Assembly: GCF_002148795.1 (NCBI RefSeq)
Contig: NZ_MPOB01000005.1
Span: 301,023-365,022, forward strand
Reading direction: 5' to 3'
Source of the DNA: Oceanibaculum nanhaiense
GTDB lineage: Bacteria; Pseudomonadota; Alphaproteobacteria; Oceanibaculales; Oceanibaculaceae
DNA: 64,000 bases
The notes below the pieces were generated by a model. That model was not told where the DNA came from. It searched no databases and worked only from the letters and a program-made list of their open reading frames with translations. The stretch's first letter is position 1, and each line of letters begins with the position of its first letter. Shown here piece by piece: positions 44,641 through 63,186 of this stretch. The position numbers and the translations under genes were made by a program.

Positions 44641-44676
44641 ACGGCCGGTCTTCCTGTACCCGCATTACGTGCATGA

Positions 44677-44695
44677 GTGGCGCAGATGGCGCCAC
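44677..44695 (+). other. Stem-loop between tssB and tssC
   Basis: GTGGCGC (44677-44683) and GCGCCAC (44689-44695) form a perfect 7-bp stem with a 5-nt loop, 27 bp before the tssC start. There is no T run, so it is not a classical terminator. It may stabilise or process the mRNA to set the TssB:TssC ratio. Confidence 0.4.
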
Positions 44696-44721
44696 CGCCA
44701 TCCTCTCCTGAAGGTGACATC

Positions 44722-46524: not shown

Positions 46525-46580
46525 CCCCGACAGCCCGCTAGGGCTCCAGCGACAGGCATCAGACGGCCAGGGAGGCCCCC

Positions 46581-47078
46581 ATGGACTACATCGTCCTCAA
46601 CATCGCCGACAAATACGCCATCAAGGGCGAATGCACGCTCGACAAGCATACCGACCAGATCAACCTGCTGGGCTTTTCCACCGGCGTGGCGATGCCGCTG
46701 CATTTCGACTCCTCGGGCGGCGGCCGCGCCACCGGCCGCGCGCAGGTGCAGGACATCACGGTCACGAAATATCTCGACCAGGCGACCCCGAAGCTGAACC
46801 TCGGCTGCTGCCTCGCCACCGAGCTGGGCAAGATCGAGATTTACCTGATCCGCACCTCGGGCGACAAGCCGATCGAGGCGATGACCTACACGCTGGAGAA
46901 CGCGATGGTCTCCTCCGTGTCGCTGAATGCCGGCGGCAACGATCTGCCCGTCGAATCGGTCACCTTCAACTTCACCAAGATCACCTGGAGCTACCAGTTC
47001 GAGACCAAGGAAGGCGACCAGAAGGGCAAGGTCGAGACCGAGTACGACATGGAAAAGGCGACCGGCCAGGGCAAGTAG
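46581..47078 (+). CDS. hcp: Type VI secretion inner tube protein Hcp (TssD)
   Basis: A 165-aa Hcp/TssD protein forming hexameric rings of the T6SS inner tube and carrying or exporting effectors. Typical features are the internal GECTLDKHTDQINLLGFSTG loop region, the beta-barrel pattern DITVTKYLDQATPKLNL, and the late block VESVTFNFTKITWSYQF. Length fits the non-fused form; no effector domain is attached. The ATG at 46581 has the strong site AGGGAGG just upstream. It lies 56 bp after tssC and 21 bp before tssE. Confidence 0.93.
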   Translation: MDYIVLNIADKYAIKGECTLDKHTDQINLLGFSTGVAMPLHFDSSGGGRATGRAQVQDITVTKYLDQATPKLNLGCCLATELGKIEIYLIRTSGDKPIEAMTYTLENAMVSSVSLNAGGNDLPVESVTFNFTKITWSYQFETKEGDQKGKVETEYDMEKATGQGK

Positions 47079-47099
47079 CTCAGCACCGGGTGACGGATC

Positions 47100-47543
47100 G
47101 TGCCTTCCCGCGAAGTGTATGGCCAGCGCGCGCCGCTGTTCGAGCGGCTGTCCGCCCGCGACACGCCGCTGGTGCTGGACGGGCCGGCGCTGGCGGAGTC
47201 GATCCGGGGCGCGCTGGTGCGGCTGCTGGGCTCGCGCGCCGACCGCTCGGTCGCCTCCTATCTGGCCGGGCCGCGCCTCGTCACCTCCTACGGCGTGCCG
47301 GGCACAGTGGATTTCACTGCCGTCTCGCTGTCCGACCGGCAACTGATGGCGCGCTGCCTTGAGGCTGCCATTGCCAGCTATGAGCCTCGCCTGTCCGACA
47401 TCTCTGTCGTCCTCGAGCCGACGCGCGACCGGCTGCGTCCGCTGGAGGCGCGGCTGACCGCGACGGTAACGCTAATGGGCTATCAGCGCGCCGTGGTGTT
47501 CCTGCTGAACGGGCGCGCGGTGACGCTGGCAGGGGAGGGCTGA
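47100..47543 (+). CDS. tssE: Type VI secretion baseplate protein TssE
   Basis: A 147-aa gp25-like baseplate subunit that starts sheath assembly together with TssFGK. Matching segments are PLFERLSARDT at the start, SYLAGPRLVTSYGVPGTVDF (family consensus: ...VLNYGLPDL) and the C-terminal strand region RPLEARLTATVTLMGY. The start is GTG at 47100. It ends one base before tssF. Fits the common B-C-hcp-E-F-G order. Confidence 0.88.
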   Translation: MPSREVYGQRAPLFERLSARDTPLVLDGPALAESIRGALVRLLGSRADRSVASYLAGPRLVTSYGVPGTVDFTAVSLSDRQLMARCLEAAIASYEPRLSDISVVLEPTRDRLRPLEARLTATVTLMGYQRAVVFLLNGRAVTLAGEG

Positions 47544-47544
47544 G

Positions 47545-49341
47545 ATGGACGGCTACGAAACGCTGCTGCCCTATTACCAGCGCGAGCTATCCTTCCTGCG
47601 CCGGGAAGGGGCGGATTTCGCGCAGCAATACCCACAGATCGCGCGCCGGCTGGACGTGGCGGGTGATACCGTCACCGATCCGGATGTCGAGCGGCTGATC
47701 GAATCCGTGGCCTTCCTGACGGCCCGCATCCAGCATGTCATCGACCAGGAATTCCCGATCATCCCGACGGCGATGCTGGATATTCTCTATCCGCAATTCT
47801 CGACGCCGATCCCGTCCATGGCCATCGCCCAGTTCCGCCCGCCGGAGGAGGCAGGCAAGCTGACCACCGGCCTGACCGTGGAGCGCGGCCGGCAGTTCTT
47901 CGCCGCCAGCGGGGAGAAGGGGGCGCCGGTGGTGCGCTTCCGCACCTGCTATCCGGCGACCATCTGGCCGTTGCAGCCGAGCTATGCCGGCTTCGACGAC
48001 AGCTATCCCGAGATCGTGCAGGCGGAGCGTGCACGCAGCCTGTTCCGCCTGCGGCTGCGCAGCACCGGCCCCGGCTTCGCGGTGCTGGGGGTGGAGCGGC
48101 TGCGGGTCTATCTGGCCGGTATCGAGCTGCTGACCGACCGGCTGTACCAGATGCTGACCTCGGAAATCCGTTGCGTCTATGTGCTGCCCGATGGCGATGC
48201 CTCGCGCAGGGTCCGGCTGCCGGCCGCCAGCGTGGAGCCTGTCGGGTTCCGGCCTGACGAGGCGGTGCTGCCGGACATGCCCTACGGCCTCGACGGCTAC
48301 CGGTTGCTGCTGGAGCTGTTCCAGTTTCCCGACAAGTTCCGGTTCCTCGACTTCACCGGGCTGGATGTGGCGGGCGATGCCACCATGATCGACCTGCTGT
48401 TTCCGGTAACCGTGTCGCCGCCGGCGGAAATCCATGCCGACCCTGGTACCTTCCGGCTGGGCTGCACGCCGGTCATCAACCTGTTCCGCGGCGTCAGCCA
48501 GCCGATCCGCCTGACCGGGGAGAAGCTCGATTATCCGGTGCTGGCCGATCTTGGCGACCGCGCCTCGGTCGAGGTGCATTCGATCGGCCGGGTTGCCGCC
48601 ACGCCCGATCCCGACCGGCCGGTCGCCTGGGTGAAGCCCTATTTCGGTTTCGCCGGGCCGGAGGGCCAGGCCGAGGATGGGCTGTACTGGGTCGCCCGCC
48701 GCCGCCCGACACGGCTGGCCGGCGTGCCCGGCGACGAGATGGTGCTGAGCTTCGTCGATCCCGCCTTCAAGCCGGCCTTTCCGGCGGACCGCGTGCTCTA
48801 TGCCCAGCTGCTGTGTACCAACCGGCGGCTTGCCCCCTTCCTGCCGGCGAACCAGCCCTTGCAGCCGGACGAGGCGGCGGTGCCCGGCACCCAGGCGCTG
48901 CTGACCGCGCCAACCATGCCGCTGGAACCGGCGACGGACGGTTCATCCCTGTGGCAACTGGTTACGCAGCTGGCCCTCGGGCAGGCCTCGCTGGTCGCCG
49001 GCGACGGCGCGGTGCTGCGCCAGTTCCTGCAGCTGTACGAGCTGGACGGGATGGTCTCCAGCAACGTGCTGATCGACGCGCTGGCCGGTGCGACCGCCAC
49101 GCCCGCAACTTTACGCGCGGCGGATGGCGCCAGCCTGATCCATGGCAGTGACATCACGCTCAGCTTCGACGACACGGTACGGCCGGAAGGCAGCCTCTAC
49201 ATACTGGCCACGGTGCTGGACCGGGTGCTGCCGGTCTTCGCCAGCGCCAACAGCTTCACGCGGCTGTCGGCGCGGCTGCTCAGCAAGGCGGAAAGGTGGA
49301 AATCATGGCCGGCCCGGATCGGCGACCGCCCGCTGCTGTGA
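47545..49341 (+). CDS. tssF: Type VI secretion baseplate protein TssF
   Basis: A 598-aa baseplate wedge subunit (VasA/ImpG). The N-terminus YYQRELSFLRREGADFAQQYPQIARRL and VERLIESVAFLTARIQHVID are the defining TssF block (residues of about 9-70), followed by LLDILYPQF-like ILYPQFSTPIPSMAI. The length is standard. It is adjacent to tssE (1-bp gap) and overlaps tssG by 37 bp, as these two often do, since TssF and TssG form a fixed 2:1 complex. Confidence 0.93.
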   Translation: MDGYETLLPYYQRELSFLRREGADFAQQYPQIARRLDVAGDTVTDPDVERLIESVAFLTARIQHVIDQEFPIIPTAMLDILYPQFSTPIPSMAIAQFRPPEEAGKLTTGLTVERGRQFFAASGEKGAPVVRFRTCYPATIWPLQPSYAGFDDSYPEIVQAERARSLFRLRLRSTGPGFAVLGVERLRVYLAGIELLTDRLYQMLTSEIRCVYVLPDGDASRRVRLPAASVEPVGFRPDEAVLPDMPYGLDGYRLLLELFQFPDKFRFLDFTGLDVAGDATMIDLLFPVTVSPPAEIHADPGTFRLGCTPVINLFRGVSQPIRLTGEKLDYPVLADLGDRASVEVHSIGRVAATPDPDRPVAWVKPYFGFAGPEGQAEDGLYWVARRRPTRLAGVPGDEMVLSFVDPAFKPAFPADRVLYAQLLCTNRRLAPFLPANQPLQPDEAAVPGTQALLTAPTMPLEPATDGSSLWQLVTQLALGQASLVAGDGAVLRQFLQLYELDGMVSSNVLIDALAGATATPATLRAADGASLIHGSDITLSFDDTVRPEGSLYILATVLDRVLPVFASANSFTRLSARLLSKAERWKSWPARIGDRPLL

Positions 49342-50387
49342 TCGACCGGCTGTTCGCGCAGCCCTGGCGGTTCGAGTTCTGCCAGGCAGTGCGGCTGCTG
49401 GAGGCGCTGGTGCGCGCGCCGAAACCAGTCGGCGAATCCGGCAATCCGGAGATGGAGCCGATCCGCTTCCGCGCCGCGCCGACCTTCAGCTTCGAGGGGG
49501 CGCCGGTGCGCCATGTCACGCCGCCACTGATATCCCTGACCAGTTCGGCGATGGAGACCTACCTGCGGCAGGATGGCAGCAGTGTCGCGCAGGCCGACAT
49601 GATCGTCAGCTTCTTCGGCCTCGCCGGCACGGTGGGCGCGCTGCCGCTGGCCGATACCGAAAGGCTGCTGCGTGCGGTGCAGAAGCGCGATCCGGCGATG
49701 GCGGATTTCCTGGCGCTGTTCGAGAACCGGCTGATCGCCGTCTATTACCGCGCCCGCAAGGCGCAGCGCCCGGCCTTCGATCCGGTGCCGCCGGAGGACT
49801 CGGCGCTGGCCTACTATCTGCAGGCAATCATGGGCTTCGCCCTACCCGGGATTGCCGCCAGTCTGCCACCCGATCTGCGCCGCCGGCTGCTGCCCTTCGC
49901 CGGGATGCTGGCCGGGGTGCGCCGCCCTATGGAGGGCTTGCATAAACTGCTGGCCGGCGTGCTTTCCCTGCCGGTCGCCATCGAGGCGCCGGTGCCGCGC
50001 ATGGCCAGGGTGGCGGTGGATCAGCGCAGCGCGCTCGGCACCCGGCTGGGGCGGTTCCAGGCGCTGGGCAAGAACGCCGTACTGGGCGGGCGGCTGTCGG
50101 ATGGCGGGCGGACGATCCGGCTCTGGATCGGGCCGCTCGACCGCCCCGCCTATGATGGCTTGCTGCCAGGCGGGCCGGGCTTCGAGATTCTGCGCCGGCT
50201 GGCCGGGCTGTATCTTGGCGACGGCTATGCGGTGGAGGTTCGTCCGGTCCTGCATGCCGAGGATGTCAGCGGTGCCAGCCTTTCCGCAAAGTCGGGCGCG
50301 CGGCTCGGCCTGACCAGCTGGCTGCTGGGTGGGGCCGCCGATTCGGATGCCTGCGAGGCCCGCTTCGCCCTGCCGGCGGTGCGCTAA
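49305..50387 (+). CDS. tssG: Type VI secretion baseplate protein TssG
   Basis: A 360-aa baseplate subunit (VasB/ImpH). The N-terminal segment VIDRLFAQPWRFEFCQAVRLLEAL (residues of about 11-34) is the family block, then IRFRAAPTFSFEGAPV, the LFDxALRP-like phrase being less conserved. The ATG at 49305 is used; a GTG at 49296 is possible. It overlaps tssF by 37 bp and ends directly against vgrG (no spacer). The C-terminal GARLGLTSWLLGG is typical. Confidence 0.92.
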   Translation: MAGPDRRPPAAVIDRLFAQPWRFEFCQAVRLLEALVRAPKPVGESGNPEMEPIRFRAAPTFSFEGAPVRHVTPPLISLTSSAMETYLRQDGSSVAQADMIVSFFGLAGTVGALPLADTERLLRAVQKRDPAMADFLALFENRLIAVYYRARKAQRPAFDPVPPEDSALAYYLQAIMGFALPGIAASLPPDLRRRLLPFAGMLAGVRRPMEGLHKLLAGVLSLPVAIEAPVPRMARVAVDQRSALGTRLGRFQALGKNAVLGGRLSDGGRTIRLWIGPLDRPAYDGLLPGGPGFEILRRLAGLYLGDGYAVEVRPVLHAEDVSGASLSAKSGARLGLTSWLLGGAADSDACEARFALPAVR

Positions 50388-52322
50388 ATGGCCGGGCCGG
50401 TCTTCGCCGCCACGGTGAAGACGCCGCTGTCCGGCGTCGCCTTCACACTGCTGGCGCTGGAGGCGGAGGAAGGCCTGTCCCGGCCCTTCCGCTATCTGGC
50501 GACGGTGCGGGCCGACAAGGCGGATGCCGATGTCGCCAGCCTGCTTGGCAAGATCGCCTCGGTCACGCTGACCGCCGATGGCAAGGCGAAGCGGCTGTTC
50601 TCCGGCATCGTCGCCGAGGCCGGGCAGCTGGATGCTGACCCGCGCGGCGCCAGCTACCGGCTCGATATCCGCCCCGCGCTCTGGCTGCTTAGCCTCGCCG
50701 GCGACTGCCGCATCTTCCAGCAGAAGAGCCTGTCCGACATCGCCAAGACGGTGCTGAAGGCGGATGGGGCGACACGGATATCGGACAAGCTGTCGGGCAC
50801 CTACGACGCGCTCGATTATGTGGCGCAGTTCGATGAAAGCGACTTCGCCTTCGTCAGCCGCCTGCTGGAACGCGCCGGTATCTTCTATTTCTTCACCCAT
50901 GCGGAGGAAGGGGAGACGCTGGTGCTGGCCGACGATTCCTCGGCCTTCAAGCCGATTGCCGGCCCTTCGGCGCTGAATTACCGGATGGCGCAGGGCAGCG
51001 GGTTGCAGCCCGACGCGGTGTCCTTCCTCAGCAGGTCGGCGCGGATGACGACCGGCACATTCTCGACCGGCGATTATAGCTTCCTCACCCCTTCGACCGA
51101 TCTGACGGTGACGTCCAAGGGCAAGGGCAGCGACGTCACCCGTTATCTTTATCCCGGCGGCTACGAGAAGCGCGACGCGGGCGATGCCATCGCCAAGCAC
51201 CAGATCCAGGCGCTGGACGCGGATGCCGTGCAGCTTGCCGGGGAAAGCGCCTGCCCGACCCTGCTGCCCGGCGCCACAATCAGCATCCAGGGCTATGGCG
51301 ATGCCAAGGTGAACGGGAAGTATGTGCTGATCTCGGTCAGCCATATCTTTACCGAGGATGGCTACCGCAACCGCTTCACCGCACTGCCCGCCGATACGGT
51401 GATTCGGCCGCTGGCGCTGACCCCGCGTCCGCGCATCGCCGGGCTGCAAACGGCGAAGGTGGTCGGCAAGCAGGGCGAGGAAATCTGGACCGACAAGTAT
51501 GGCCGCATCAAGGTCCAGTTCCCCTGGGACCGGCAGGGCAAGTCGGACGAGAACAGCTCCTGCTGGATCAGGGTCGTGCAGGGCTGGGCCGGTAAGGGCT
51601 GGGGCCATCTGTTCGTGCCGCGCATCGGCATGGAGGTGATGGTCGCCTTCGTCGATGGCGACCCCGACCGGCCACTGGTGGTGGGCGCGCTCTACAATGC
51701 CGAGCAGACAGTTCCCGTCACCCTGCCGGGCGACCAGACCAAGAGCACGATAAAGACCAACTCCTCCAAGGGCGGCGGCGGTTTCAACCAGATCCTGTTC
51801 GACGACGCGAAGGACAAGGAGCTGATCTATCTGCACGCCCAGAAGGACATGACGTCGGAGGTGCTGCACAACCGGACTGCGACAGTCACGCAGGACGAGA
51901 AACTGACTGTCTCCAAGGGCGACCGCACGGTGGAGGTCTCAGAGGGCAAGGAGACGCACAGTGTGAAGAAGACCCGCGACGTGACGGTCACGGGCAAGGA
52001 GACGCACACCAACAAGGCGGATTTCGACCACACGGTGGACGGCAATATGAGCCTCACCGTGAAGGGCAATTACAGCCTGACCGTGCAGGGCTCCATCACC
52101 ATCAAGGCGACCGGTGCCGTCACCATCGAGAGCAGCACTGGGGCGGTCACGGTGAAGGCAGCGCAGAGCCTCGAGACCTCCGGGATGACGATCTCCAACA
52201 AGGCGACGACCAGCCTGACCAACGATGGCGGCATGTCGATCACCAACACCGCGCAGGGCAAGGCCGCGCTGGAGAGCAGCGGCATGGTCACGATCAACGG
52301 CGCGATGGTGAAGATCAATTGA
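50388..52322 (+). CDS. vgrG: Type VI secretion spike protein VgrG (TssI)
   Basis: A 644-aa VgrG that trimerises as the spike on Hcp. The gp27-like domains run to about residue 360 (FRYLATVRADKADAD; GIFYFFTHAEEGETLVLADD). The OB/gp5 region includes KYGRIKVQFPWDR and SCWIRVVQGWAGKGWG. From about residue 440 to the end the sequence is a beta-helix needle of short repeats such as VTVTGKETH, MSLTVKGNYSLTV and GAVTVKAAQS. There is no toxin domain after it, so effectors must be loaded non-covalently. Its stop overlaps the MORN-like gene start by 4 bp. Confidence 0.95.
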   Translation: MAGPVFAATVKTPLSGVAFTLLALEAEEGLSRPFRYLATVRADKADADVASLLGKIASVTLTADGKAKRLFSGIVAEAGQLDADPRGASYRLDIRPALWLLSLAGDCRIFQQKSLSDIAKTVLKADGATRISDKLSGTYDALDYVAQFDESDFAFVSRLLERAGIFYFFTHAEEGETLVLADDSSAFKPIAGPSALNYRMAQGSGLQPDAVSFLSRSARMTTGTFSTGDYSFLTPSTDLTVTSKGKGSDVTRYLYPGGYEKRDAGDAIAKHQIQALDADAVQLAGESACPTLLPGATISIQGYGDAKVNGKYVLISVSHIFTEDGYRNRFTALPADTVIRPLALTPRPRIAGLQTAKVVGKQGEEIWTDKYGRIKVQFPWDRQGKSDENSSCWIRVVQGWAGKGWGHLFVPRIGMEVMVAFVDGDPDRPLVVGALYNAEQTVPVTLPGDQTKSTIKTNSSKGGGGFNQILFDDAKDKELIYLHAQKDMTSEVLHNRTATVTQDEKLTVSKGDRTVEVSEGKETHSVKKTRDVTVTGKETHTNKADFDHTVDGNMSLTVKGNYSLTVQGSITIKATGAVTIESSTGAVTVKAAQSLETSGMTISNKATTSLTNDGGMSITNTAQGKAALESSGMVTINGAMVKIN

Positions 52323-52681
52323 GCGCGCCCGAGCCTCATACCGAGCCCCTCCTGCTGCTGGACGCCAAGGGCCGGCCGGAGGTCGAGGGCCAGACGCTCG
52401 ATGGCAAGCTGGACGGGCTGGTGCGCTTCTACGCGGATGGGCGGCTGGCGATGACGGCGACCTACCGGACCGGCGCGCTGGACGGGCCGATGGTGAGCTA
52501 TGGGGCGGACGGGGCGGTGCTGGCGGAGATGCTCTATCGCGACGGCGAGAAGATTTCCGAGACAACGCCTCCGCCCCCGCAACCAGCGCCCGCTCCGCCG
52601 CCCGCCGAACCGCCTGGTCTGCTCCAGCTGCTGAAGCAATGGCTGGCGATAAAGCTGAAACCCGCGAAAGGAGGTCACTGA
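52319..52681 (+). CDS. MORN-repeat-like protein in the T6SS locus
   Basis: A 120-aa protein with two or three MORN-like (YwqK-type) repeats at about residues 18-83: LDGKLDGLVRFYADGRLAMTA, GALDGPMVSYGADGAVLAEM and LYRDGEKISE. A Pro-rich linker (PPPPQPAPAPPPAEPP, about residues 85-100) and a basic amphipathic tail (LLKQWLAIKLKPAKGGH) follow. No catalytic residues or signal peptide are seen. It is translationally coupled to vgrG and lies 2 bp before the PAAR-like gene. A spike-assembly accessory or adaptor between VgrG and the PAAR-like tip is plausible, but that is inference. Confidence 0.8.
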   Translation: MSAPEPHTEPLLLLDAKGRPEVEGQTLDGKLDGLVRFYADGRLAMTATYRTGALDGPMVSYGADGAVLAEMLYRDGEKISETTPPPPQPAPAPPPAEPPGLLQLLKQWLAIKLKPAKGGH

Positions 52682-52682
52682 C

Positions 52683-53072
52683 ATGGCGATGCAGGTCTGT
52701 GCCGGGGCCATGCTGATGTGCAGCTTCGGCGTCGCGCCGGCGGCGCTGTCGGTGCTGCCGACCAACCGGGTGATGGCAGGCGGGCCGCCGGCGGCTACCA
52801 TCATGGACCATATCCCCATCGTGAACATTCCGCCCTTCGGCATGTGCACCAGCCTCGCCAACCCGACTGTCGCGGCGGCCACGACGGCGGCTTTCGGCGT
52901 GCTGACGCCGATGCCCTGCGTGCCGGTGGTGCCGGCACCCTGGGTGCCCGGTGCGCCGACGGTGCTGATCGGCTCGATGCCGGCGCTCGACAACAACTGC
53001 AAGGCGATGTGCACCTGGGCCGGTGTCATCCAGATCACCGTGCCGGGCCAGTTCACGGTGATGGTGCCATGA
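52683..53072 (+). CDS. DUF4150 PAAR-like tip protein
   Basis: A 129-aa protein of the PAAR-like DUF4150 group, expected to cap the VgrG spike. The start VCAGAMLMCSFGVAPAAL and the repeated Cys/Pro-rich stretches (IPPFGMCTSLANP; MPCVPVVPAPWVPG; NNCKAMCTWAGVIQI) fit. No C-terminal toxin extension is present. It shares overlapping codons with tssJ (stop at 53072, start at 53069). A spike-tip role is well supported by position next to vgrG. Confidence 0.88.
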   Translation: MAMQVCAGAMLMCSFGVAPAALSVLPTNRVMAGGPPAATIMDHIPIVNIPPFGMCTSLANPTVAAATTAAFGVLTPMPCVPVVPAPWVPGAPTVLIGSMPALDNNCKAMCTWAGVIQITVPGQFTVMVP

Positions 53073-53521
53073 GGGGGGCCATGAGGGCGCTTCTGTTCCT
53101 GCTGGTCCTCGCCGTCGCGGCCTGCGCGTCGAAGCCGCCGCCCTTGAAGACCAGCCAGCTCTATCTCGCCATCGCCCCCGACGCGAATAGCAACAGCGCC
53201 TTCCGGCTGGATGTGATCCTGACCTCCGACCCGGCACTGGCCGCCGAGATTCTGGCGTTGACCCCCGCCGCCTGGTTCGCCCAGCGCCAGCAGATGGCCG
53301 CCCTGCACGCCACGACGCTGAAGGTGGTCGGGGCGGAGCTGGTGCCCGGCCAGGCTTACGGACCGGTCGCCCTCAAGGCGAAGTTCCGCATCACCAGCGG
53401 GCTGGTGGCGGTCGGCTATGACAGGGCGGCGGCCGGCTTTGCCGTGCTGGGCGCCAACGCGTCGGAGTTGCTGACGCTGAGCCGCAGCGGATTCGCGCTC
53501 TCGGCGGCGGCGGGAAAATGA
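53069..53521 (+). CDS. tssJ: Type VI secretion outer membrane lipoprotein TssJ-like
   Basis: A 150-aa lipoprotein: signal segment ALLFLLVLAVAAC with lipobox AAC, mature Cys near residue 18. The mature part has a beta-sandwich-like pattern (TSQLYLAIAPDANSN; FRLDVILTSDPA; VALKAKFRITSG). TssJ anchors the TssLM membrane complex to the outer membrane. Sequence identity to reference TssJ is limited, but length, lipobox and place immediately before tssK-tssL-tssM support the call. A second ATG at 53081 is an alternative start. Confidence 0.78.
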   Translation: MRGAMRALLFLLVLAVAACASKPPPLKTSQLYLAIAPDANSNSAFRLDVILTSDPALAAEILALTPAAWFAQRQQMAALHATTLKVVGAELVPGQAYGPVALKAKFRITSGLVAVGYDRAAAGFAVLGANASELLTLSRSGFALSAAAGK

Positions 53522-53601
53522 GTGGAAAAGCCTATAGTCATACACGCGCATAAGTAGTATTTCTAAATGAATACACCCGTAACTACTTCGGACCTGCCGG
53601 C
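53522..53601 (+). promoter_or_regulatory. AT-rich tssJ-tssK intergenic region with inverted repeat
   Basis: An 80-bp gap, the second AT-rich patch in the T6SS locus. AAGTAGT (53552-53558) and ACTACTT (53582-53588) are inverted repeats around a 23-nt loop. They could be an operator or a leader hairpin next to a promoter for tssK-L-M-A. Evidence is base composition and symmetry only. Confidence 0.35.
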
Positions 53602-54978
53602 ATGAGTGAGTCGCCGCGGACCATTCCTCCGCTGCCCCTGAAATGGTGGGAAGGCATGCTGCTGGCCCCGCAGCACATGCAGCAGCAGGGGCTGCGGCAG
53701 GAGATGCTGGTCGCCTATCAGGCCGGGCTGCTGGCGCCCTGCGCCTGGGGTGTGGTGCGGCTGGAAAGCTCGGCCGACGCCGATGGCGGTATCGTGCCGG
53801 ATGGGCGCATCGCCATCACCGCGCTGGAGGCGATCCTGCCGGATGGCACGGCGGTATCGCATGGGCCAGGATCGAACGGTGTGGCTTCGCCAGTCTCGTT
53901 GTCGCTCGACCTCGGGCCGGTGCTGCCGGCGGTGGAGGGGCGCAGCCTGCGCCTCTATCTCACCCTGCCGCTGCGCCATGCTGGTGATGTCGCGCCGGAC
54001 AGCGGCGCGCGCTTCGTGCCGGTGGTGCAGCGCGCGGTGCCGGACGAGAACACCGACGCCGACCCGATCGAGCTGACGCGCCTCGCTCCGGCGCTGGCGC
54101 TGTCCGCCGGGCCGCCGCCGGCCGACCGCTATGTCGGGCTACCGCTGATGGAGATCGCCTACCGCAACGGCGCCTACCGCATCGGCGCCTATGTGCCGCC
54201 CGGCCTGCTTTGCCCGTCCGGCGGCACGCTGCAAAGCTTGTGCGCCGGTATTGCCGACAAGCTGCGTCGGCAGGCCGGCGGGCTGACCGCGCTGGCCGGG
54301 CTGTCGGCAACCGACTGGCGTGCTGCGATGGCGGGGGAGGCGGCGGCGGAACTGCGCGGGCTGGCTGCCGGGCTGCCGGGTTTCGAGGCGCTGGTGTTCG
54401 GCCCGCCGGTGCATCCCTACAGGCTCTATCTCGGCCTGACCGTCCTGGCCGGCGCGGTCGCCGCCGCCGTGCCGGGCACGCTGCCGCCGCGCTTTCCGGC
54501 TTACGACCACACGGACGCGCTGCCCTGCTTCCAGGCGGTGGCCAGCTTTGTCGAGGCGACACTGGCCGGCCTCGGTGGCGGCTGGCGGGCGGTACCGTTC
54601 GAGACGGGCGAGGAGGGCGGCTTCCGGCTGGAGATTCAGGCGGAGTGGCTGGCCGCAGGTCTGGTCATCGGCGTGTTGCCGCCGGAGGGCGCGGATATCG
54701 AGACCGCGCACCGCTATATGGGCGCCTGCCTGATCGGCAGCGAATCGCGATTGCAGGGCTTGCGCAAGCGCCGCGTGCTGGGGGCGGGGCGGCAGCGCGT
54801 GGCGGAGCGGGACGCGCTGTCCATCGCCCGCCGGCCCGACATGGCGGTCTATCGCGTGCAGCCGGAAGGCGAGATCGTGGCCGGGGAGGCCCTTGCCATC
54901 GGCATTTTCCAGGCGGAAGCCTCGGTGAACCCGCCCGCCGGCATCGTGCTGTTCCTGCCGCCGGAGAAAACCGGATGA
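53602..54978 (+). CDS. tssK: Type VI secretion baseplate protein TssK
   Basis: A 458-aa baseplate trimer subunit that links the baseplate to the TssL/M membrane complex. The N-terminal signature KWWEGMLLAPQHMQQQ (residues of about 13-28) matches the family WxEGMFLxPQHFQ. Central and C-terminal parts have VGLPLMEIAYRNGAY and the phage receptor-binding-like domain end. Its stop overlaps tssL (ATGA). The start at 53602 follows an AT-rich intergenic segment rather than being coupled to tssJ. Confidence 0.92.
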   Translation: MSESPRTIPPLPLKWWEGMLLAPQHMQQQGLRQEMLVAYQAGLLAPCAWGVVRLESSADADGGIVPDGRIAITALEAILPDGTAVSHGPGSNGVASPVSLSLDLGPVLPAVEGRSLRLYLTLPLRHAGDVAPDSGARFVPVVQRAVPDENTDADPIELTRLAPALALSAGPPPADRYVGLPLMEIAYRNGAYRIGAYVPPGLLCPSGGTLQSLCAGIADKLRRQAGGLTALAGLSATDWRAAMAGEAAAELRGLAAGLPGFEALVFGPPVHPYRLYLGLTVLAGAVAAAVPGTLPPRFPAYDHTDALPCFQAVASFVEATLAGLGGGWRAVPFETGEEGGFRLEIQAEWLAAGLVIGVLPPEGADIETAHRYMGACLIGSESRLQGLRKRRVLGAGRQRVAERDALSIARRPDMAVYRVQPEGEIVAGEALAIGIFQAEASVNPPAGIVLFLPPEKTG

Positions 54979-55703
54979 GTGCCGCCGACGCCTTTCTGCT
55001 GAACGGGTTCCGCGGCTATTACGACGCGTTGGAGGACTGGCGTGTGAAGGCGCTGGCCAGCGCTGATCCGGCGCGGCGGCAGGATATCCAGGCCGATCTC
55101 GCGGCGCGGCTGGATACGCTGGCGTCCGAGGCGCGGCAGCGGGGCGGGGAGCGGCTGGGCGAGATGCAGGACCGCGCCGCCTATCCAATGGTGGCGTTAA
55201 CCGACGAAGTCTTCGTCTATCTCGACTGGCCGGGTGAGGGCGACAGGGGTGGTGACTGGCTCAGCCATCTGTTCGAGCAGCGCTATTGCCGCAGCCATGT
55301 GGCGGGGGAAGAGGTCTTCGCCCGCATCGACGCGCTGGAACGCGAGGGGGCGGCGGGACTGCCCGCAGCGCTGGCGCGGATCTTCCTGCAGGTGCTGGGG
55401 CTGGGGTTCGAGGGCCGCTATCGCTGCCAGTCGGACGGGGCGGCGGTGCTGCGCCGCTACCGCCAGCGTCTGGCGCGGCTGGCCTTTGCCGGCAGGCCGC
55501 CGCTCTCATCGCCGAATGGCAGGCTGACGCCGGAGGCCTATCAGCACATTCTGGACCCGCCGCCGCCTGTCCCGCCGCCCGGGCCGGCACGCTGGGCCGG
55601 CTGGCTGCTGCTGACGCTCGCTGGCCTCTTTGCGTGCTCGGCGCTGGTCTGGCTGCTCGCCGTCTGGCCGCTGCTGCGGGCGCTCGCCCTGCTGCCGGGC
55701 TGA
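54975..55703 (+). CDS. tssL: Type VI secretion membrane protein TssL (DotU family, short form)
   Basis: A 242-aa IcmH/DotU protein with a cytosolic helical domain (AYPMVALTDEVFVYLDWPGE; HLFEQRYCRSHVAGEEVF; LGLGFEGRYR) and a single C-terminal transmembrane helix (WAGWLLLTLAGLFACSALVW). There is no OmpA-like peptidoglycan-binding extension, so anchoring to the wall must be handled by another protein. It overlaps tssK by 4 bp and is followed 4 bp later by tssM, its partner in the JLM membrane complex. Function is clear from motifs and position. Confidence 0.92.
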   Translation: MSAADAFLLNGFRGYYDALEDWRVKALASADPARRQDIQADLAARLDTLASEARQRGGERLGEMQDRAAYPMVALTDEVFVYLDWPGEGDRGGDWLSHLFEQRYCRSHVAGEEVFARIDALEREGAAGLPAALARIFLQVLGLGFEGRYRCQSDGAAVLRRYRQRLARLAFAGRPPLSSPNGRLTPEAYQHILDPPPPVPPPGPARWAGWLLLTLAGLFACSALVWLLAVWPLLRALALLPG

Positions 55704-55707
55704 TGCC

Positions 55708-58700
55708 ATGGCGGCGCAATTCCTTGCCTATCTGAAGGATGTGCCCGGCTGGGCCTGGGGCGTGCTGGGACTCCTGCTCGTGCTGCTGGCGGGCGGCGCG
55801 CTCTGGTGGTGGCTGACGCACCGCAAGCAGCCGGACAGCGCCACGACGACGACCGATATGGCGCTGGCGGCGCTGAAGCAGGCGGTGCCGCAGGCTGCCG
55901 CGCGGGCGGCCCTACCCTGGGTCGCGCGGATCGGCCCTGACCTGCCGGGCCTCGCCGGCATTCCCGGCATGGCGCCCGATTTCGTGGAACCGGCGGCGGT
56001 GCCGAAGGACGGCGCGATGCGCTGGTGGGGCGTGCCGGGTGGCGTCATCATCGATTTGCCCTGGACCGCCGAGCCTTTCGACGCGGCGCTGAAAGCCCTT
56101 GTCGCGGCACGGCCGGACCGGCCGCTCGACGCGGTGCTGCTGACCTTGCCGGCCGCCGCGCTGGATGCTGATCCCACGCTGGCGACGACGCTGCGCGCAC
56201 GGCTGATGGACGCCTGCCGGGAATCGGGCATGCGCCTGCCCATCTATCTGCTGCTGGACGGGGCGGAAGGGCTGGCGGGCTTCCCGGAAGTCGCCCTGGC
56301 CCTGCCGGAGGTACGCCGCGCGGACATGCTGGGCTGGTCGGTTCCGGTCGGCATCGCGGCGCCCTACGATCCGGCCTGGCCGGGCACCGCGCTGCGGGAG
56401 ACCGCCATCGCGCTGGGCGATACGGTGGCGGCGCTGTTCGGGGCGGATGATGCCCTGCCGGACCCGGAGGCCGCCTATCGCCTGCCAGAGCGGATAAGCG
56501 CGCTCGCCGGTCCCGCCTCGGCGCTGGCCGGGACGATCTTCACACCGGGCGTGCAGCCAGCGCCCTACGGGCTGCGCGGGCTCTACCTCGCCGGAACGGT
56601 ACCGGGCACGCGTTTCTTCCTGGCCGATCTGCTGCGCCGGAAGATCTTTGCCGAGACCGGCCTGGCTGTTCCTTTATCGGGTCACGCGCCTCGGCAAAGC
56701 TGGCAGGTGCAGGCGCTGCGCGCGGCGACCGTCACAGTAGCGGTGGTCGGGCTGGCTGGCATGATCTGGTCGGCGGTCGGCCTCAGCCGTGCCGCCACCG
56801 ACATGGCGGGCATTGTCACGCAGCTGCGCGATGATCTCACCCGGATTGATCGGCAGTCGTCTGTTGGGCAACCGCCCGACCGCGACACGCTGGCCGGCAT
56901 GGTGCAGCGGCTGGTAGCGGCGCTGGACGCGGCGCAATCGGACCGGCTGCGCTATGCCTTCCTGCCGGTGTCCTGGTTCGATCCGTTGTCGCCTGCCCTC
57001 TCGGACGCGGCGGAGCAGGGCTTCGGGCGGATCGTACTGGCGGCGATCCGCGCCGGGCTGGAGGCGGAGGCGCTGGCGCTGGCCGACCCGGCCACGCCGC
57101 TCTCGGTGCCGAGGCCGGCGGCGGAGGCCAAGGGGTTTCCGTCGCTGCAGAACTATCTGGCGGTATCGGCCTATCTCGATGAGGTGGCGTCGTTCGAGGC
57201 GCAGCTGGCGCTCTATGACGGGCTTGCCGGGCCGGACCGGGCGCAGAACCTCTCCACCCTGATGAAGGAGTTGCTGTCGGTCGATCTCGATCCCGCCATC
57301 GTCACTTCCCGCCCGCCGCTGATGGCGGGGCTGGCGGCGGCGCGGCAGGCGGCGGGGACTTTCCCGCTGGCACCCTATCGGCCGGGCGTGCGGACGCGGC
57401 TTGACGGGCTGATGAGCGCGTTCCTGCAAACGGATTATGCCGGCAACACCTTGCAGGCGGCGCTGGCGCCGGTCGCTGCTGACATGGCGGCGATTACCGG
57501 ATCGGCGCAGAGCGGCAAGCCGACCGCGCTCGACCGGCTGCAAGCGGGGCTGGATGCTGCTACCAAGCTGGTGTCTTCGGGCACGGTTGCCTATCTGGCG
57601 CTCGATCCGGCCAGGGACGCGGACGCCACGGCACTGACCGGGCGGATGGCGCAATCGGCGCTGCTGGGCGAGACTACGGCCACAGCGGAACAGGCGCGCT
57701 GGGTGAAGGCCGCCACCGACGCGCGCGCCGCACTGACGGCCTTGAAGGCGCCGGGCTACCCATCCTTCGTGAGTATCGGAAATGCTGTCGCGCTCGACCC
57801 GGCGATGGATGCGCTGGCGACGGCGCTCGATGCGCTCTACGCCCAGCCCTTCATGGCGGCGGGGCAGGCGCGCAAGCTGCCCGCCAGCCTGACCGAGGGC
57901 AGTGCGGCGTTTTGGGATCCGGCCCCGCTGGCCGAGGCGAAGACTGCCGCAACATCCTATGCCGGCACGGTGAAGCCGCCGGCGGGTATCGCCGCGCCGC
58001 TGGCGTCGGAGGTGGCGGCGCTGATGGCGCTGCGCGCCTCCGTCACTATCGAGGACCGGCTGGCCGGATCGCTCGCCCAGCGCGCCCCGGCGGGCAAGAC
58101 ACTTCCTGAATTGCAAACGGAAGCGTCGGCCTTCTCCGCCGCCGCCGCCGACCTGGAGGCGGTGCTGACCGCGCTGACAACGGGACGGCTGCTACCGCTG
58201 CGGCTCGATCTCGGCGCGATCCTGCGCGATCAGGCGGACTCGCTGCTCGCCCGCACCGACGCGCTGCAAGCGGCGAATGCGGATTACGCCACGGTCGATG
58301 GCGACGCGTTTGGCTGGTGGGACGGCAAGGCAGCGCTGGGCTATCGCGGCTTCGGGCTGGACAGTCAGGCGGTCATGCAGGCGCTGCTGACCCGCAATCA
58401 GGAGTATATCGGCCTGCTGAGCAACCAGCTGGCCGGACCGGTGCTGGATTTCCTCGGCAAGGCGGGCAGCGCCCTGCCGCCGGGCGACGCGCAGGCGCTG
58501 GAGGCGAAATGGGCGGGCATTGCGGCGGCCCTGGCGGCGATGGCCGCGAAGCAGCCGACCGCGACCATGGCGGTACTGAACGGCTTCATTCTGGAGACCA
58601 TGCCGGCAATCACGCTTTCCACCTGCGCCAGCGCCATCACGCCCGCAATGCTGGCGGCTTCCCCCGCTGATTATTTCGATGCCCGAAGGTTGACGCTGAT

Positions 58701-59511
58701 GCGTGGCATATCGAACCGTTGCACAGCGCTGGCACAGAGCGATGTGGCCGGCGGCTACGACGCGCTGGTGACGCAGTTCCGCACCCGCGTGGAGGGCAAG
58801 TATCCCTTCGCGGCGGCGGACCGGCTGCAGGAGGTGACTCCTGCCGACCTGCTGGCGCTGCTGCGCGCCTATGATGCGCTGCCGGCAAACGCGGCGGAGG
58901 TGCTGCGCGGGCAGGGCGAGGCGGATGCCGCCGCTTTCGTGAGTGCCATCGGGCATGTGCGGGCGCTGTTCCCTGCCTTTGACGGCAGCGCGCCGCCCAG
59001 CCTCGGCCTGCTGCTGACGCCGCGCAGCAACCGCGACTATGAACGCGGCGGCAACCAGCTGATCGACTGGCGCATCGCGGTCGGCGACGAGACGCTGTCC
59101 GGCGTGCCTGCGGCACCATCGCCACTGGTGTGGGAGGCGGGGGATGCCGTCACCATCACCCTGCGCATCGCCGCCAACGGGCCGCTGAGCCCTGCCCCGG
59201 CCGGGCAGCAGCCGGCGGCCAGCGTCAGCGGTGAGGCCGTGACCTACAGCTTCGGCGGCAGCTGGGCCGCCTTTCGTGCCTGGCAGGCACAGCGCGGCAC
59301 GGCGGCGGATTTCCCGCCCGGCAGCCCGGCCCTGGAAACCAGCTGGCGCTTCGTGATCGCCACGCAGAATACGCAAGGGGCGGCAGGCGATCCGGTGCGC
59401 GTCTATGCCTCCGCCGTGCCCTTCGCGCCGGCAGACAAGACCCGCGCGCCGCTGGCCCTGCCAGCCTTCCCCACCAGCGCGGCCGATCTAAAGGCCGGAG
59501 GTACGCAATGA
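55708..59511 (+). CDS. tssM: Type VI secretion membrane protein TssM (IcmF family, degenerate NTPase)
   Basis: A 1267-aa IcmF/TssM protein. One N-terminal transmembrane helix (about residues 15-36) is followed by a cytosolic NTPase-like domain, then a helix at about 334-358 and a large periplasmic part. The place where other TssM have a Walker A motif reads RIGPDLPGLAGIP (residues 74-86), with no GKT. The following WWGVPGGVIIDLP (106-118) aligns with the usual WWF...LIDTAG strand, but the DxxG motif is lost. So NTP binding seems abolished. It lies between tssL and tssA, which it overlaps by 4 bp. Some TssM are known to lack Walker A, so this is not unique. Confidence 0.9.
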   Translation: MAAQFLAYLKDVPGWAWGVLGLLLVLLAGGALWWWLTHRKQPDSATTTTDMALAALKQAVPQAAARAALPWVARIGPDLPGLAGIPGMAPDFVEPAAVPKDGAMRWWGVPGGVIIDLPWTAEPFDAALKALVAARPDRPLDAVLLTLPAAALDADPTLATTLRARLMDACRESGMRLPIYLLLDGAEGLAGFPEVALALPEVRRADMLGWSVPVGIAAPYDPAWPGTALRETAIALGDTVAALFGADDALPDPEAAYRLPERISALAGPASALAGTIFTPGVQPAPYGLRGLYLAGTVPGTRFFLADLLRRKIFAETGLAVPLSGHAPRQSWQVQALRAATVTVAVVGLAGMIWSAVGLSRAATDMAGIVTQLRDDLTRIDRQSSVGQPPDRDTLAGMVQRLVAALDAAQSDRLRYAFLPVSWFDPLSPALSDAAEQGFGRIVLAAIRAGLEAEALALADPATPLSVPRPAAEAKGFPSLQNYLAVSAYLDEVASFEAQLALYDGLAGPDRAQNLSTLMKELLSVDLDPAIVTSRPPLMAGLAAARQAAGTFPLAPYRPGVRTRLDGLMSAFLQTDYAGNTLQAALAPVAADMAAITGSAQSGKPTALDRLQAGLDAATKLVSSGTVAYLALDPARDADATALTGRMAQSALLGETTATAEQARWVKAATDARAALTALKAPGYPSFVSIGNAVALDPAMDALATALDALYAQPFMAAGQARKLPASLTEGSAAFWDPAPLAEAKTAATSYAGTVKPPAGIAAPLASEVAALMALRASVTIEDRLAGSLAQRAPAGKTLPELQTEASAFSAAAADLEAVLTALTTGRLLPLRLDLGAILRDQADSLLARTDALQAANADYATVDGDAFGWWDGKAALGYRGFGLDSQAVMQALLTRNQEYIGLLSNQLAGPVLDFLGKAGSALPPGDAQALEAKWAGIAAALAAMAAKQPTATMAVLNGFILETMPAITLSTCASAITPAMLAASPADYFDARRLTLMRGISNRCTALAQSDVAGGYDALVTQFRTRVEGKYPFAAADRLQEVTPADLLALLRAYDALPANAAEVLRGQGEADAAAFVSAIGHVRALFPAFDGSAPPSLGLLLTPRSNRDYERGGNQLIDWRIAVGDETLSGVPAAPSPLVWEAGDAVTITLRIAANGPLSPAPAGQQPAASVSGEAVTYSFGGSWAAFRAWQAQRGTAADFPPGSPALETSWRFVIATQNTQGAAGDPVRVYASAVPFAPADKTRAPLALPAFPTSAADLKAGGTQ

Positions 59512-60584
59512 AACAGGTCTGGTCGCATCTGCCGGATATCGACCGGGCGGCGCTGCTGCGCCCGATCTCTCGCAAATCACCCTGCGGTGCCGCCCCGCGC
59601 GAGACTGGCGTCAGCGACCCGATCCGCCGGCTGCGCCAACAGGGGCACGATAATCCGGAGGTCACCGACTGGGCCGGCATCGAGGAAGCTTGCCTCGCCG
59701 CGCTGGCCGGGCGCGCGAAGGATATCGAGATCGCCGCCTGGCTGACCGAAGCGCTGCTCTACCGGCGCGGTGCGGCGGGGCTGGCGGCGGGGCTGGACCT
59801 CATCGCCTGCTATGCCGAACGCTTCTGGGACAAGGTGCATCCGCTGCCCGAGGATGGCGACTTCGATTACCGCGTGGCCCCGCTGGACTGGCTCGACCGG
59901 CTGTCGGTGCCGGTGCGCCTGATCCCGCTGACCGCGCCCGCCGAGCCGGGCGTGCCGCCCTATGGCCTGCATGACTGGGAGATGGCCGGGCATCTGGCGC
60001 AACTCGCGCGCAGCGACCCGAAACGGCACCAGCGCGAACGCCAGGCCGGCGCGGTCGCGGCGGAGGATATCGAACTCAGCCTGATGCTGACACCGGATGG
60101 TTTCCTGCGCGATCAGGCGGTTTTGTTCGCCGCCGCCGCGGCGCGGCTGGCCGATCTGTCCGCCCTGCTGGAGGAGAAGGGCGCGGACGGTTTCTCCGGC
60201 CTGCCGGCGCTGTCCCGCACCATCGCCGCCTGCCGGCATTTCCTCGACTCCGCGCTGGCCGCCCGGCCGGATGCGGCGTTGGCGCCGGAAGAGGAAGCGC
60301 CAGCGCCCGAGGGTTCACACCTAGGGGGGCACCCGGCGGCCGCGCTGACGCTGTCCGTGCCCGAGGAGGGCAGCTTCGTGGAAATCCGCAACCGCGAGGA
60401 GGCCTACCGGCTGCTGGCGCTGGCCGCCGACTATCTGATGCGGGCCGAGCCGCACAGCCCCGCCCCCTATCTGGTGCGCCGCGCCATCGCCTGGGGCGGC
60501 ATGAGCCTGCCGCAGCTGCTCACCGAACTGCTCGACGGCGACACTGACATCGCGCGGCTGCGGCGGTTGCTGGGGTTGCCTTGA
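59508..60584 (+). CDS. tssA: Type VI secretion protein TssA (ImpA N-terminal domain)
   Basis: A 358-aa protein with the ImpA_N domain (PISRKSPCGAAPRETGVSD... and WLTEALLYRRGAAGLAAGLDLI, residues of about 18-110), which sits at the baseplate and coordinates sheath polymerisation. HPLPEDGDFDYRVAPLDWL is the family WPxxD-like region. The C-terminal part (residues of about 285-358, EIRNREEAYRLLALAADYLMRAEPHSPAPYL region) resembles the VasJ-type short C-terminal domain. It overlaps tssM by 4 bp and is the last T6SS gene, converging with the VOC gene. Confidence 0.92.
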   Translation: MKQVWSHLPDIDRAALLRPISRKSPCGAAPRETGVSDPIRRLRQQGHDNPEVTDWAGIEEACLAALAGRAKDIEIAAWLTEALLYRRGAAGLAAGLDLIACYAERFWDKVHPLPEDGDFDYRVAPLDWLDRLSVPVRLIPLTAPAEPGVPPYGLHDWEMAGHLAQLARSDPKRHQRERQAGAVAAEDIELSLMLTPDGFLRDQAVLFAAAAARLADLSALLEEKGADGFSGLPALSRTIAACRHFLDSALAARPDAALAPEEEAPAPEGSHLGGHPAAALTLSVPEEGSFVEIRNREEAYRLLALAADYLMRAEPHSPAPYLVRRAIAWGGMSLPQLLTELLDGDTDIARLRRLLGLP

Positions 60585-61140: not shown

Positions 61141-63186
61141 ATGGCGGCCGCCGAGGACATCGAAAAGGGCACGCCCGGCTCCGACCAGGAGCTGGAACAA
61201 TCGGCGCGTACCGAAGGGCTGAATTTCGACATCCAGCTGAACCAGCCGCTGGCGCAATTCTCGCGCCTGGGCACGCCCGCCTATGCCGCCGAATCGAAGG
61301 TGGGGGCCGCCGGGCGCTTCTACGCCATGGTGCTGGACCCCGATTATCCGCCGCGTACCAAGGCACTGCGGGGCTTACGCGGCGTGCGCATGCCGGGCCT
61401 GACCTGGCTGGAGGAATGGGCGGTGGTGCCCTGGCCGGCGGCGAACGGGGCGCAGCGGCTGATCTGCGTGTTCCGCCGGCCGAACGGCGACCCGCTGATG
61501 GATGGCCGCTACATGGCGCCCGCACCGATGCCGGAACGCCAGGTGATGGTAGATGTGGTGCAGCCGGTGCTGGAGACGCTGCTCGACCTGTTCCGCCTGG
61601 GGCTGACGCATGGCGCCATCCGGCCGAATAATCTGTATCGCTGCCGCGACCAGGGCCGTGTCGTGCTGGGCGAATGCCTGTCGGTGCCGCCCGGCGCCGA
61701 CCAGCCGGAAATATTCGAGCCGCTGGACCGCGCCGCGACCGAGCCGCTGACACGGGGCGAGCCGGCGATGAGCGACGATGTCTATGCGCTGGGCATGACG
61801 GCGGCGTTCCTGCTGGTCGGCAAGCATCCGGCGCCTGAGCAGAACGCCAAGGCGCTGCTGCGCAAGCGGGTCGAGGGGGCGAGCTTCATGCTGCTGTCGG
61901 AGCGGCACCGCCTGCCCTACAGCATGCTGGAATTCCTGCGCGGCACGCTGCAGGACGATTCGCGCGACCGCTGGACGCTGATGGACATCGATGCCTGGCT
62001 GAAGGATGGCACGATTCCGAAGACCAAGCTGCACCTGCCGAAGATGGCCGGCTGGCCGATGGAGTTCCTGGGCGAGCCGCACACCACGCTGCGCTCGCTC
62101 GCCTATACGGTTGCCCGCTCGACCGATATCGAGGGCGCCAAGGACTTCCTGCTCAGCCGCAAGTTCCGCAACTGGATGGCGCGCGGGCTGGACGAGGAGC
62201 GCATGCTGCCGGCGCTCGATGCGCTGTTCGGCGAGCGTGAGGAAAAGAGCATCGACAAGATGGCCGAGGCGGTGTCCCTGGCCTGCATGCAGCTGAACCC
62301 CCAGGCGCCGCTGCACTATAAGGGGCTGGCGGTGAATCCCGCCGGCATGGGAACGGCGCTGTCGTCGCAGTATGATGACCCGGCCTTCCGTGCCCGTCTC
62401 ATCGAGATGGTGAAAAGCAACATACCGCTGCGCTGGCTGGGCGCGCAGTCGGATGCCGATGGCTATATCGGCGTGCACAAGCTGCTGACCAAGGCGCAGG
62501 GGCTGGCGTCGCGCAGCGGCTGGGGCTTCGGTGTGGAGCGCGCGCTGTACGAAATGCAGCCGATGGCGCGCTGCCGCAGCACGCTGTTGAACAAGTATCT
62601 GGTGTACCGGGTGGAGGCGATCCTGCCGGCGCTGGAAGAGGCGGCGGCGGCGGCCAAGGAACCCTTCCTGCCGGTGGACAAGCATCTGGTTGCCTTCGTC
62701 ATGTCGCGCCGGCGCGATTTCTCCATCGGCCTGCTGGAAGGGCTGGACGGCGCTGACGAATTCGCCAAGGCCCAGGCGGCGCTGCGCTTCCTCTCCTTCC
62801 TGGAGGAGAAGACGGAAAATTCCGATGGCTGGCCGGAACTGGCGCGCATGCTGGGCGGCATGCTGCAGCCTGGCATCGACCGCATCCTGCGGCCGCGCCG
62901 CAAGGCGGAGCTGCAGCGCAAGACCGACAAGGCGATGGAAGAGGGCAAGCTGTCGGCCCTGCAGGAAGTGTTCAGGCAGGGCGGGCTGTTCGAGCAGGAC
63001 CAGCGCGAGTTCAAGGATGCCAGCTTCCGCTGGCGGCTGAACCAGACACAGATCCTGTCGGCGGAGAATGACGAGAGGCTGCTGGTTCAGCGCGCCGGGG
63101 AACTGGGCAGCCGCATCGCCTTCTTCATCACCGTCAGCCTGTCCTTTATCAGCGTCGCCGGCATCATGGTGTTCATGCTGATCTGA
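61141..63186 (+). CDS. Tail-anchored protein kinase-like protein, probably a pseudokinase
   Basis: A 681-aa protein with a kinase C-lobe-like region: HGAIRPNNLY at 157-166 in place of the catalytic HxDxKxxN loop, GECL near 177 where DFG should be, and SDDVYALGMTAAFLLVGKHP (211-230), matching the helix F region of protein kinases. The Gly loop and VAIK Lys are not visible, and the catalytic Asp is lost. A long helical region follows to residue 640 and one hydrophobic helix (IAFFITVSLSFISVAGIMVF, about 658-677) ends the protein, so it is tail-anchored. It lies 0.55 kb after tssA and is separated by the VOC gene. It may be a degenerate relative of T6SS kinases (PpkA) or independent. Confidence 0.7.
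   Translation: MAAAEDIEKGTPGSDQELEQSARTEGLNFDIQLNQPLAQFSRLGTPAYAAESKVGAAGRFYAMVLDPDYPPRTKALRGLRGVRMPGLTWLEEWAVVPWPAANGAQRLICVFRRPNGDPLMDGRYMAPAPMPERQVMVDVVQPVLETLLDLFRLGLTHGAIRPNNLYRCRDQGRVVLGECLSVPPGADQPEIFEPLDRAATEPLTRGEPAMSDDVYALGMTAAFLLVGKHPAPEQNAKALLRKRVEGASFMLLSERHRLPYSMLEFLRGTLQDDSRDRWTLMDIDAWLKDGTIPKTKLHLPKMAGWPMEFLGEPHTTLRSLAYTVARSTDIEGAKDFLLSRKFRNWMARGLDEERMLPALDALFGEREEKSIDKMAEAVSLACMQLNPQAPLHYKGLAVNPAGMGTALSSQYDDPAFRARLIEMVKSNIPLRWLGAQSDADGYIGVHKLLTKAQGLASRSGWGFGVERALYEMQPMARCRSTLLNKYLVYRVEAILPALEEAAAAAKEPFLPVDKHLVAFVMSRRRDFSIGLLEGLDGADEFAKAQAALRFLSFLEEKTENSDGWPELARMLGGMLQPGIDRILRPRRKAELQRKTDKAMEEGKLSALQEVFRQGGLFEQDQREFKDASFRWRLNQTQILSAENDERLLVQRAGELGSRIAFFITVSLSFISVAGIMVFMLI

Follow-up and report, generated by a model that had tools for sequence, protein, structure and literature searches.

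What work does a degenerate, membrane-anchored kinase do beside a T6SS gene cluster? Such a gene lies close to tssA in the window (the whole 64,000-nucleotide stretch of Oceanibaculum nanhaiense DNA analyzed here), and the first-pass annotation proposed that its product, a catalytically dead relative of the T6SS kinase PpkA, could serve as scaffold or sensor. Comparison across genomes points elsewhere. The alphaproteobacterial pseudokinase family to which the protein belongs is old, and the window copy is a divergent paralogue that has no partner protein (MemP, see below) of its own and is not a T6SS component. A tempting but wrong T6SS annotation of the window gene is thereby removed.

The gene, its domains, and its neighbors

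The features discussed here are collected in Table 1. A minus-strand VOC gene stands between tssA and the pseudokinase, with a gap of 152 bp between the VOC gene and the pseudokinase; the latter is therefore not simply one more gene at the end of the tss operon. Its 3' neighbor, at 63214, is the convergent ychF.

Table 1. Positions in the window of the pseudokinase gene, its parts, and the genes that precede it
Feature	Position	Strand	Basis
T6SS cluster, from TssB (first, at 44041) to TssA (last, ending 60584): TssB, TssC, Hcp, TssE, TssF, TssG, VgrG, PAAR-like, TssK, TssL, TssM, TssA	44041..60584	+	context, outside the unit
VOC/glyoxalase-family gene	60596-60988	-	Pfam Glyoxalase 2e-8
Pseudokinase gene, PK2 clade, 681 aa, ATG start	61141..63186	+	ORF list, tree clade
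Kinase-fold domain, residues 17-290	61189..62010	+	AF2 model, VIA-align/Foldseek matches, profile match
Catalytic loop HGAIRPNN (residues 157-164), degenerate: no Asp, but Arg161 and Asn164 retained	61609..61632	+	67-sequence alignment
Glu178, DFG-Asp position (E 36, D 31 of 67)	61672..61674	+	alignment
All-helical domain, residues ~295-610	62023..62970	+	AF2 pLDDT 92.7 (domain modeled alone)
C-terminal transmembrane segment, residues 657-681	63109..63183	+	hydropathy, model secondary structure

A predicted kinase fold without the catalytic residues

Searches with the single sequence match Pfam Pkinase over residues 200-283 (E=7e-4, under the curated cut-off), NCBIfam LanL (6e-7), and CaMK1D (E=0.009). 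No Pfam or NCBIfam family passes its cut-off for the window protein, PHROGs returned no match for it or for MemP, and the families matched by its relatives include no full-length model. A profile of 26 relatives, searched against solved structures, reaches titin kinase at E=2e-11 (26 of 41 sequences were used in alignment A1). The AlphaFold2 model made with 67 sequences (pLDDT 91.1, pTM 0.84) finds PknB (3oro) as its top Foldseek match (E=2e-7, TMt 0.73) and is aligned to WNK3 by VIA-align with Z 23.9 and an rmsd of 2.7 Å over 253 residues (model residues 17-289). Profile and model together confirm a predicted bilobal kinase fold, as was supposed when the protein was first read as a kinase relative, and they exclude a chance resemblance of the C-lobe.

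The "long helical middle" of the original description is real and can be refined to a separate, well-predicted domain followed by one long helix. In a Foldseek search, residues 295-610 matched no fold of the PDB at E<=0.001, the best E being 0.57; this does not in itself prove a new fold. The model draws residues 615-680 as one helix of ~66 residues whose last 25 residues are a hydrophobic anchor; hydropathy agrees (Kyte-Doolittle 2.42 for 657-681, a segment that coincides with the end of the protein), and the proposed C-terminal tail anchor is borne out by both.

HGAIRPNNL and SDDVYALG stand where they had been placed, at residues 157-165 and 211-218. The VAIK Lys, HRD Asp, and DFG Asp of active Ser/Thr kinases are all missing: V64 occupies the beta-3 Lys position, Ala159 that of the catalytic Asp, and E-C-L (from Glu178) replaces DFG, in agreement with the earlier statement that the catalytic Asp, DFG, and N-lobe nucleotide motif are absent. 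Judged by motif, the protein is a pseudokinase.

The same loss runs through the family. Alignment A3 comprises the window protein and 66 of the 79 ORFs that were usable among 80 named loci (L132 was left out for an X in its ORF; a further alignment, A4, used 59 of the 67). Its beta-3 Lys column holds V, I, L, or A in 66/67 sequences and R in one, and its HRD Asp column reads A 44, N 10, S 6, G 4, D 2, and Q 1; Asp is thus missing from 65/67, and it occurs in 0/41 rows of the more divergent alignment. Other positions in A3 are fixed or nearly so: Arg161 and Asn164 are each found in 67/67, position 178 is acidic in 67/67, and Arg72 is found in 63/67, while the first three are not universal in the more divergent 41-row set. 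We take Asn164 to be the metal-binding Asn of kinases; positions 72, 161, and 178 were equated with kinase residues by the alignment together with general kinase anatomy. The invariant Asn, Arg, and acidic residue leave room for a putative non-canonical nucleotide or metal binding, or for a nucleotide-dependent activity.

Two members, from Skermanella aerolata (L091) and Arenibaculum pallidiluteum (L098), have HGD, so that the catalytic-loop Asp has been kept or regained there.

A class-wide family with a small membrane protein as partner

The same genome encodes a paralogue, 29% identical over residues 28-680 (E=4e-86), at a locus that reads purA, pseudokinase, the gene of a small membrane protein (MemP), and then rpoH on the other strand (purA and rpoH were named from translations). 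Homology to the family extends over the full length, kinase domain, helical domain, and C-terminal anchor alike, at E=5e-242 with a profile that includes the window protein; a hydrophobic C-terminal segment is present in 38 of 41 family sequences.

The family is found in 36 of 96 related genomes, nearly all of them from different families of the class. Several of the carriers measure 1.4-1.9 Mb, which suggests a core role. A class-wide sample gave 139/387 profile matches at 1e-5, several of them weak; generic kinases probably account for several of the 139, at E about 1e-6. At 1e-20, a phylum sample gave 12/299, 11 from the same class together with a partial match from another (G412). The scan of named genomes (314 relatives, 80 kept) returned Azospirillum, Skermanella, Niveispirillum, Nisaea, Thalassobaculum, Paramagnetospirillum, SAR116, and others, and by these named relatives the class is Alphaproteobacteria; the few relatives titled as other phyla probably carry the labels of misbinned MAGs. 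We are highly confident that the window protein belongs to a class-wide alphaproteobacterial family, T6SS-independent and built of a kinase fold, an all-helical domain, and a long helix with a membrane anchor.

MemP lies directly 3' of the pseudokinase in 74 of the 78 named loci with room for it, purA is upstream in 61/74, and rpoH is present in 42/69; in the sampled loci, 36 of 37 outside the PK2 clade have MemP. Across the 96 genomes, MemP matches occur in 36/36 genomes with a pseudokinase and 3/60 without (Fisher p=2.9e-23; p=4.5e-22 with one genome per genus). The three MemP-only genomes are one with a weak match (G007, 6e-4) and two that are incomplete (G035, G049). MemP has at most three main hydrophobic stretches and a conserved C-terminal L..W-G motif, and no Pfam family was above cut-off for four MemP proteins. 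Two genomes (L162, L163) carry the tandem purA-PK-MemP-PK-MemP-rpoH, from which it follows that the PK-MemP pair duplicates as a unit.

A third tandem pair (L164) lies outside the purA/rpoH site, and one genome (G017) has four MemP matches and a single pseudokinase match.

Scaffold or enzyme?

Our preferred reading, to which we give a probability of roughly 0.55, is that the pseudokinase-MemP module may be a non-catalytic inner-membrane scaffold. The tail anchor would hang the pseudokinase from the inner membrane on its cytoplasmic side, where its C-terminal helix would pair with MemP, and kinase fold and helical domain would together offer a non-catalytic scaffold or allosteric platform for a housekeeping membrane process. 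Two sets of observations pull against this reading. MemP matches without a pseudokinase in 3/60 genomes speak against strict pairing, and the 2/67 sequences with Asp at the HRD position speak against a pure scaffold, as does the invariance in A3 of Asn164, Arg161, and acidic 178, residues that a pure scaffold could do without.

Those residues are what an alternative would explain, namely that the family could be a non-canonical enzyme with altered nucleotide binding, transferring AMP, glutamate, or phosphate in the manner of SelO and SidJ. Arg72 or Arg161 would then replace the Lys, and Asn164 with Glu/Asp178 would hold the metal. The conservation of these four positions, the two relatives with HGD, and the presence of WNK among the nearest folds of the model are consistent with it, the catalytic Lys of WNK being displaced; the HRD Asp position, which varies among A, N, S, G, D, and Q, and the missing beta-3 Lys tell against it, and we consider the enzyme unlikely. 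A further reading, also improbable, joins MemP and a rewired kinase fold in one class-wide alphaproteobacterial membrane complex that would still engage nucleotide or metal through Asn164, Arg161, Arg72, and acidic 178. Within a core pathway of the envelope or of stress, such a complex would either switch in a nucleotide-gated manner or carry out a non-phosphorylating transfer, and the window copy would be its neofunctionalized paralogue.

The scaffold reading fits the purA-type copies more than the window copy, since no MemP lies beside the latter and the only MemP match in its genome is that of the purA locus. With no MemP downstream, the window copy is filed as a family paralogue outside the purA-MemP unit. 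It might reuse the scaffold with another partner, or borrow the single MemP of the purA locus.

According to a recent review (PMC12599244), bacterial pseudokinases have for the most part gone unstudied. The present family spans a whole class, reduced genomes included; its partner gene is evident, its synteny fixed, and its helical domain has no PDB match. Members occur in the cultured genera Azospirillum, Niveispirillum, Nisaea, and Thalassobaculum. With class-wide spread, a partner gene, fixed synteny, and cultured carriers, its function is directly testable.

The PK2 clade and its VOC neighbor

PK2 orthologues are present in all four members of the genus (67-93% identical), and a fifth, 44% identical, occurs in a genome of another family (G102). 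In the IQ-TREE tree, the window protein and three genus orthologues form a clade with 100/100 support on a stem of 1.57 changes/site, and this clade does not nest with the purA copy of the genus. With the G102 orthologue included and six long-branch rows left out, FastTree support for the clade is 1.0.

A divergent VOC gene stands beside PK2 in 5/5 genomes from two families, the other four VOC proteins being 60-93% identical to that of the window. This constancy is what would be seen if PK2 and the VOC/glyoxalase protein formed a stress- or metabolite-linked unit; divergent orientation, however, needs shared promoters only, VOC proteins are common, and four of the five pairings come from one genus. 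We hold such a unit to be improbable.

Several long ORFs whose translations, judged by eye, resemble proteins of TPR/glycosyltransferase type lie near the PK2 orthologue of G102 (locus L169, G102:C23, 52-11165), and so does a pentapeptide-repeat-like protein.

Independence from type VI secretion

TssK (PF05936), taken as T6SS marker, is present in 19/96 genomes. Family and TssK occur together in 9 genomes, the family alone in 27, TssK alone in 10, and neither in 50 (Fisher p=0.43); without the window's genus the counts are 5/27/10/50 and p=1.0. Occurrence independent of T6SS is the very outcome that the first-pass annotation had named as refuting its proposal, and the scaffold or sensor role in T6SS is not supported. 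The neighborhood survey that had been suggested alongside, run with seven T6SS proteins as queries, agrees: Tss matches were found near the family gene at 1/40 sampled loci (L036, same genus; the window itself is outside the 40) and at 0/80 named loci (3.4 to 22 kb long).

Within the PK2 clade the linkage is also broken. The T6SS adjoins PK2 in 2/5 genomes (G000 and G003, or 2/4 within the genus). In G001, TssK is ~70 kb from PK2, and in G002 it is on another contig, despite T6SS genes that are clear orthologues (TssK 63-65%, TssM 57%); G102 (93% complete) has no TssK match. The simplest account is that PK2 is older than its present T6SS neighbor or was brought adjacent by rearrangement. Against this account, 4/4 genus members hold both PK2 and a T6SS, a small number.

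That PK2 binds TssL, TssM, or TssK and stands in for the missing Fha/PpkA control is very improbable: proximity to tssA in 2/4 genus members, a T6SS in all four that hold PK2, a genome with no FHA match, and the precedent of EssB/YukC, a membrane pseudokinase that works for T7SSb (PMC12599244), are outweighed by the intervening minus-strand VOC gene, the separation in G001 and G002, the G102 orthologue, and the family-wide independence from T6SS with its 1/40 and 0/80 loci. As a candidate T6SS component PK2 was accordingly rejected.

Relation to known kinases and pseudokinases

PknB-type Ser/Thr kinases share the bilobal kinase fold. The window protein differs from them in the missing beta-3 Lys, HRD Asp, and DFG, in the extra helical domain, and in an anchor that sits at the C-terminus with nothing past it. 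The LanL and MAD6 kinase domains are the best NCBIfam matches (67/67 and 64/67 family members); their likeness to the window protein is confined to the C-lobe, at 28 of 650 and 20 of 460 bits, far under the cut-offs.

PpkA is an active kinase whose Thr phosphorylation in the T6SS is read by Fha (PMC3953482). The likeness is that of a kinase-fold protein in a T6SS-bearing genome; the differences are the lost catalytic Asp, a genome without FHA, and no co-occurrence with T6SS. Membership of the PpkA group was rejected on the absence of HRD Asp and beta-3 Lys and of any FHA match in the genome.

Families of bacterial pseudokinases were reviewed in 2025, with ActPs1-3, GLW, CP1, DYD, and DLHK among those covered (PMC12599244), and the comparisons that follow use the descriptions given there. 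EssB/YukC, part of the Firmicutes T7SSb, is an example of a membrane pseudokinase that works non-catalytically; like the window protein it is a membrane-bound bacterial pseudokinase with degraded motifs, whereas the present family is alphaproteobacterial, has no T6SS association, and has no domain beyond the transmembrane segment. EssB/YukC is not among the matches listed by Foldseek or VIA-align, which is compatible with a likeness all the same. GLW pseudokinases carry GLW where HRD would stand and a poly-Leu motif (LLLL/W) in place of the beta-3 Lys region; the family here has HRA/HGA and F-A-L-V-C (FAL(V/I)C columns) instead, which excludes membership as that group is described. DLHK pseudokinases retain the HRD Asp and have no transmembrane segment, and membership was excluded by Asp in 2/67 only and the C-terminal hydrophobic segment in 38/41.

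By the motifs described there for the proteobacterial GLW and DLHK groups, the family appears to be set apart from both and to be undescribed. No paper on the purA-linked family was found; an earlier description is possible in subscription papers or in the kinase atlas behind PMC12599244, which were outside the search.

The adjacent T6SS

The description of the neighboring system as Fha- and PpkA-less holds for this assembly: a search of the genome for FHA (PF00498) gives nothing at E<=0.001, and the sole Pkinase match above cut-off is an unrelated 508-aa protein. The system also seems, from the encoded proteins, to be without ClpV/TssH, as the TIGR03345 cut-off is reached by none of the genome's proteins. 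Those that come nearest to that model are a ClpB on contig C7, a ClpK-like protein on C10, and, on C2, a shorter frame of 780 residues. The PAAR protein at 52683-53072 is IglG-like (3e-15). The combination of no ClpV, no FHA, and an IglG-like PAAR protein recalls, by analogy, the T6SS of Francisella, which reportedly uses ClpB.
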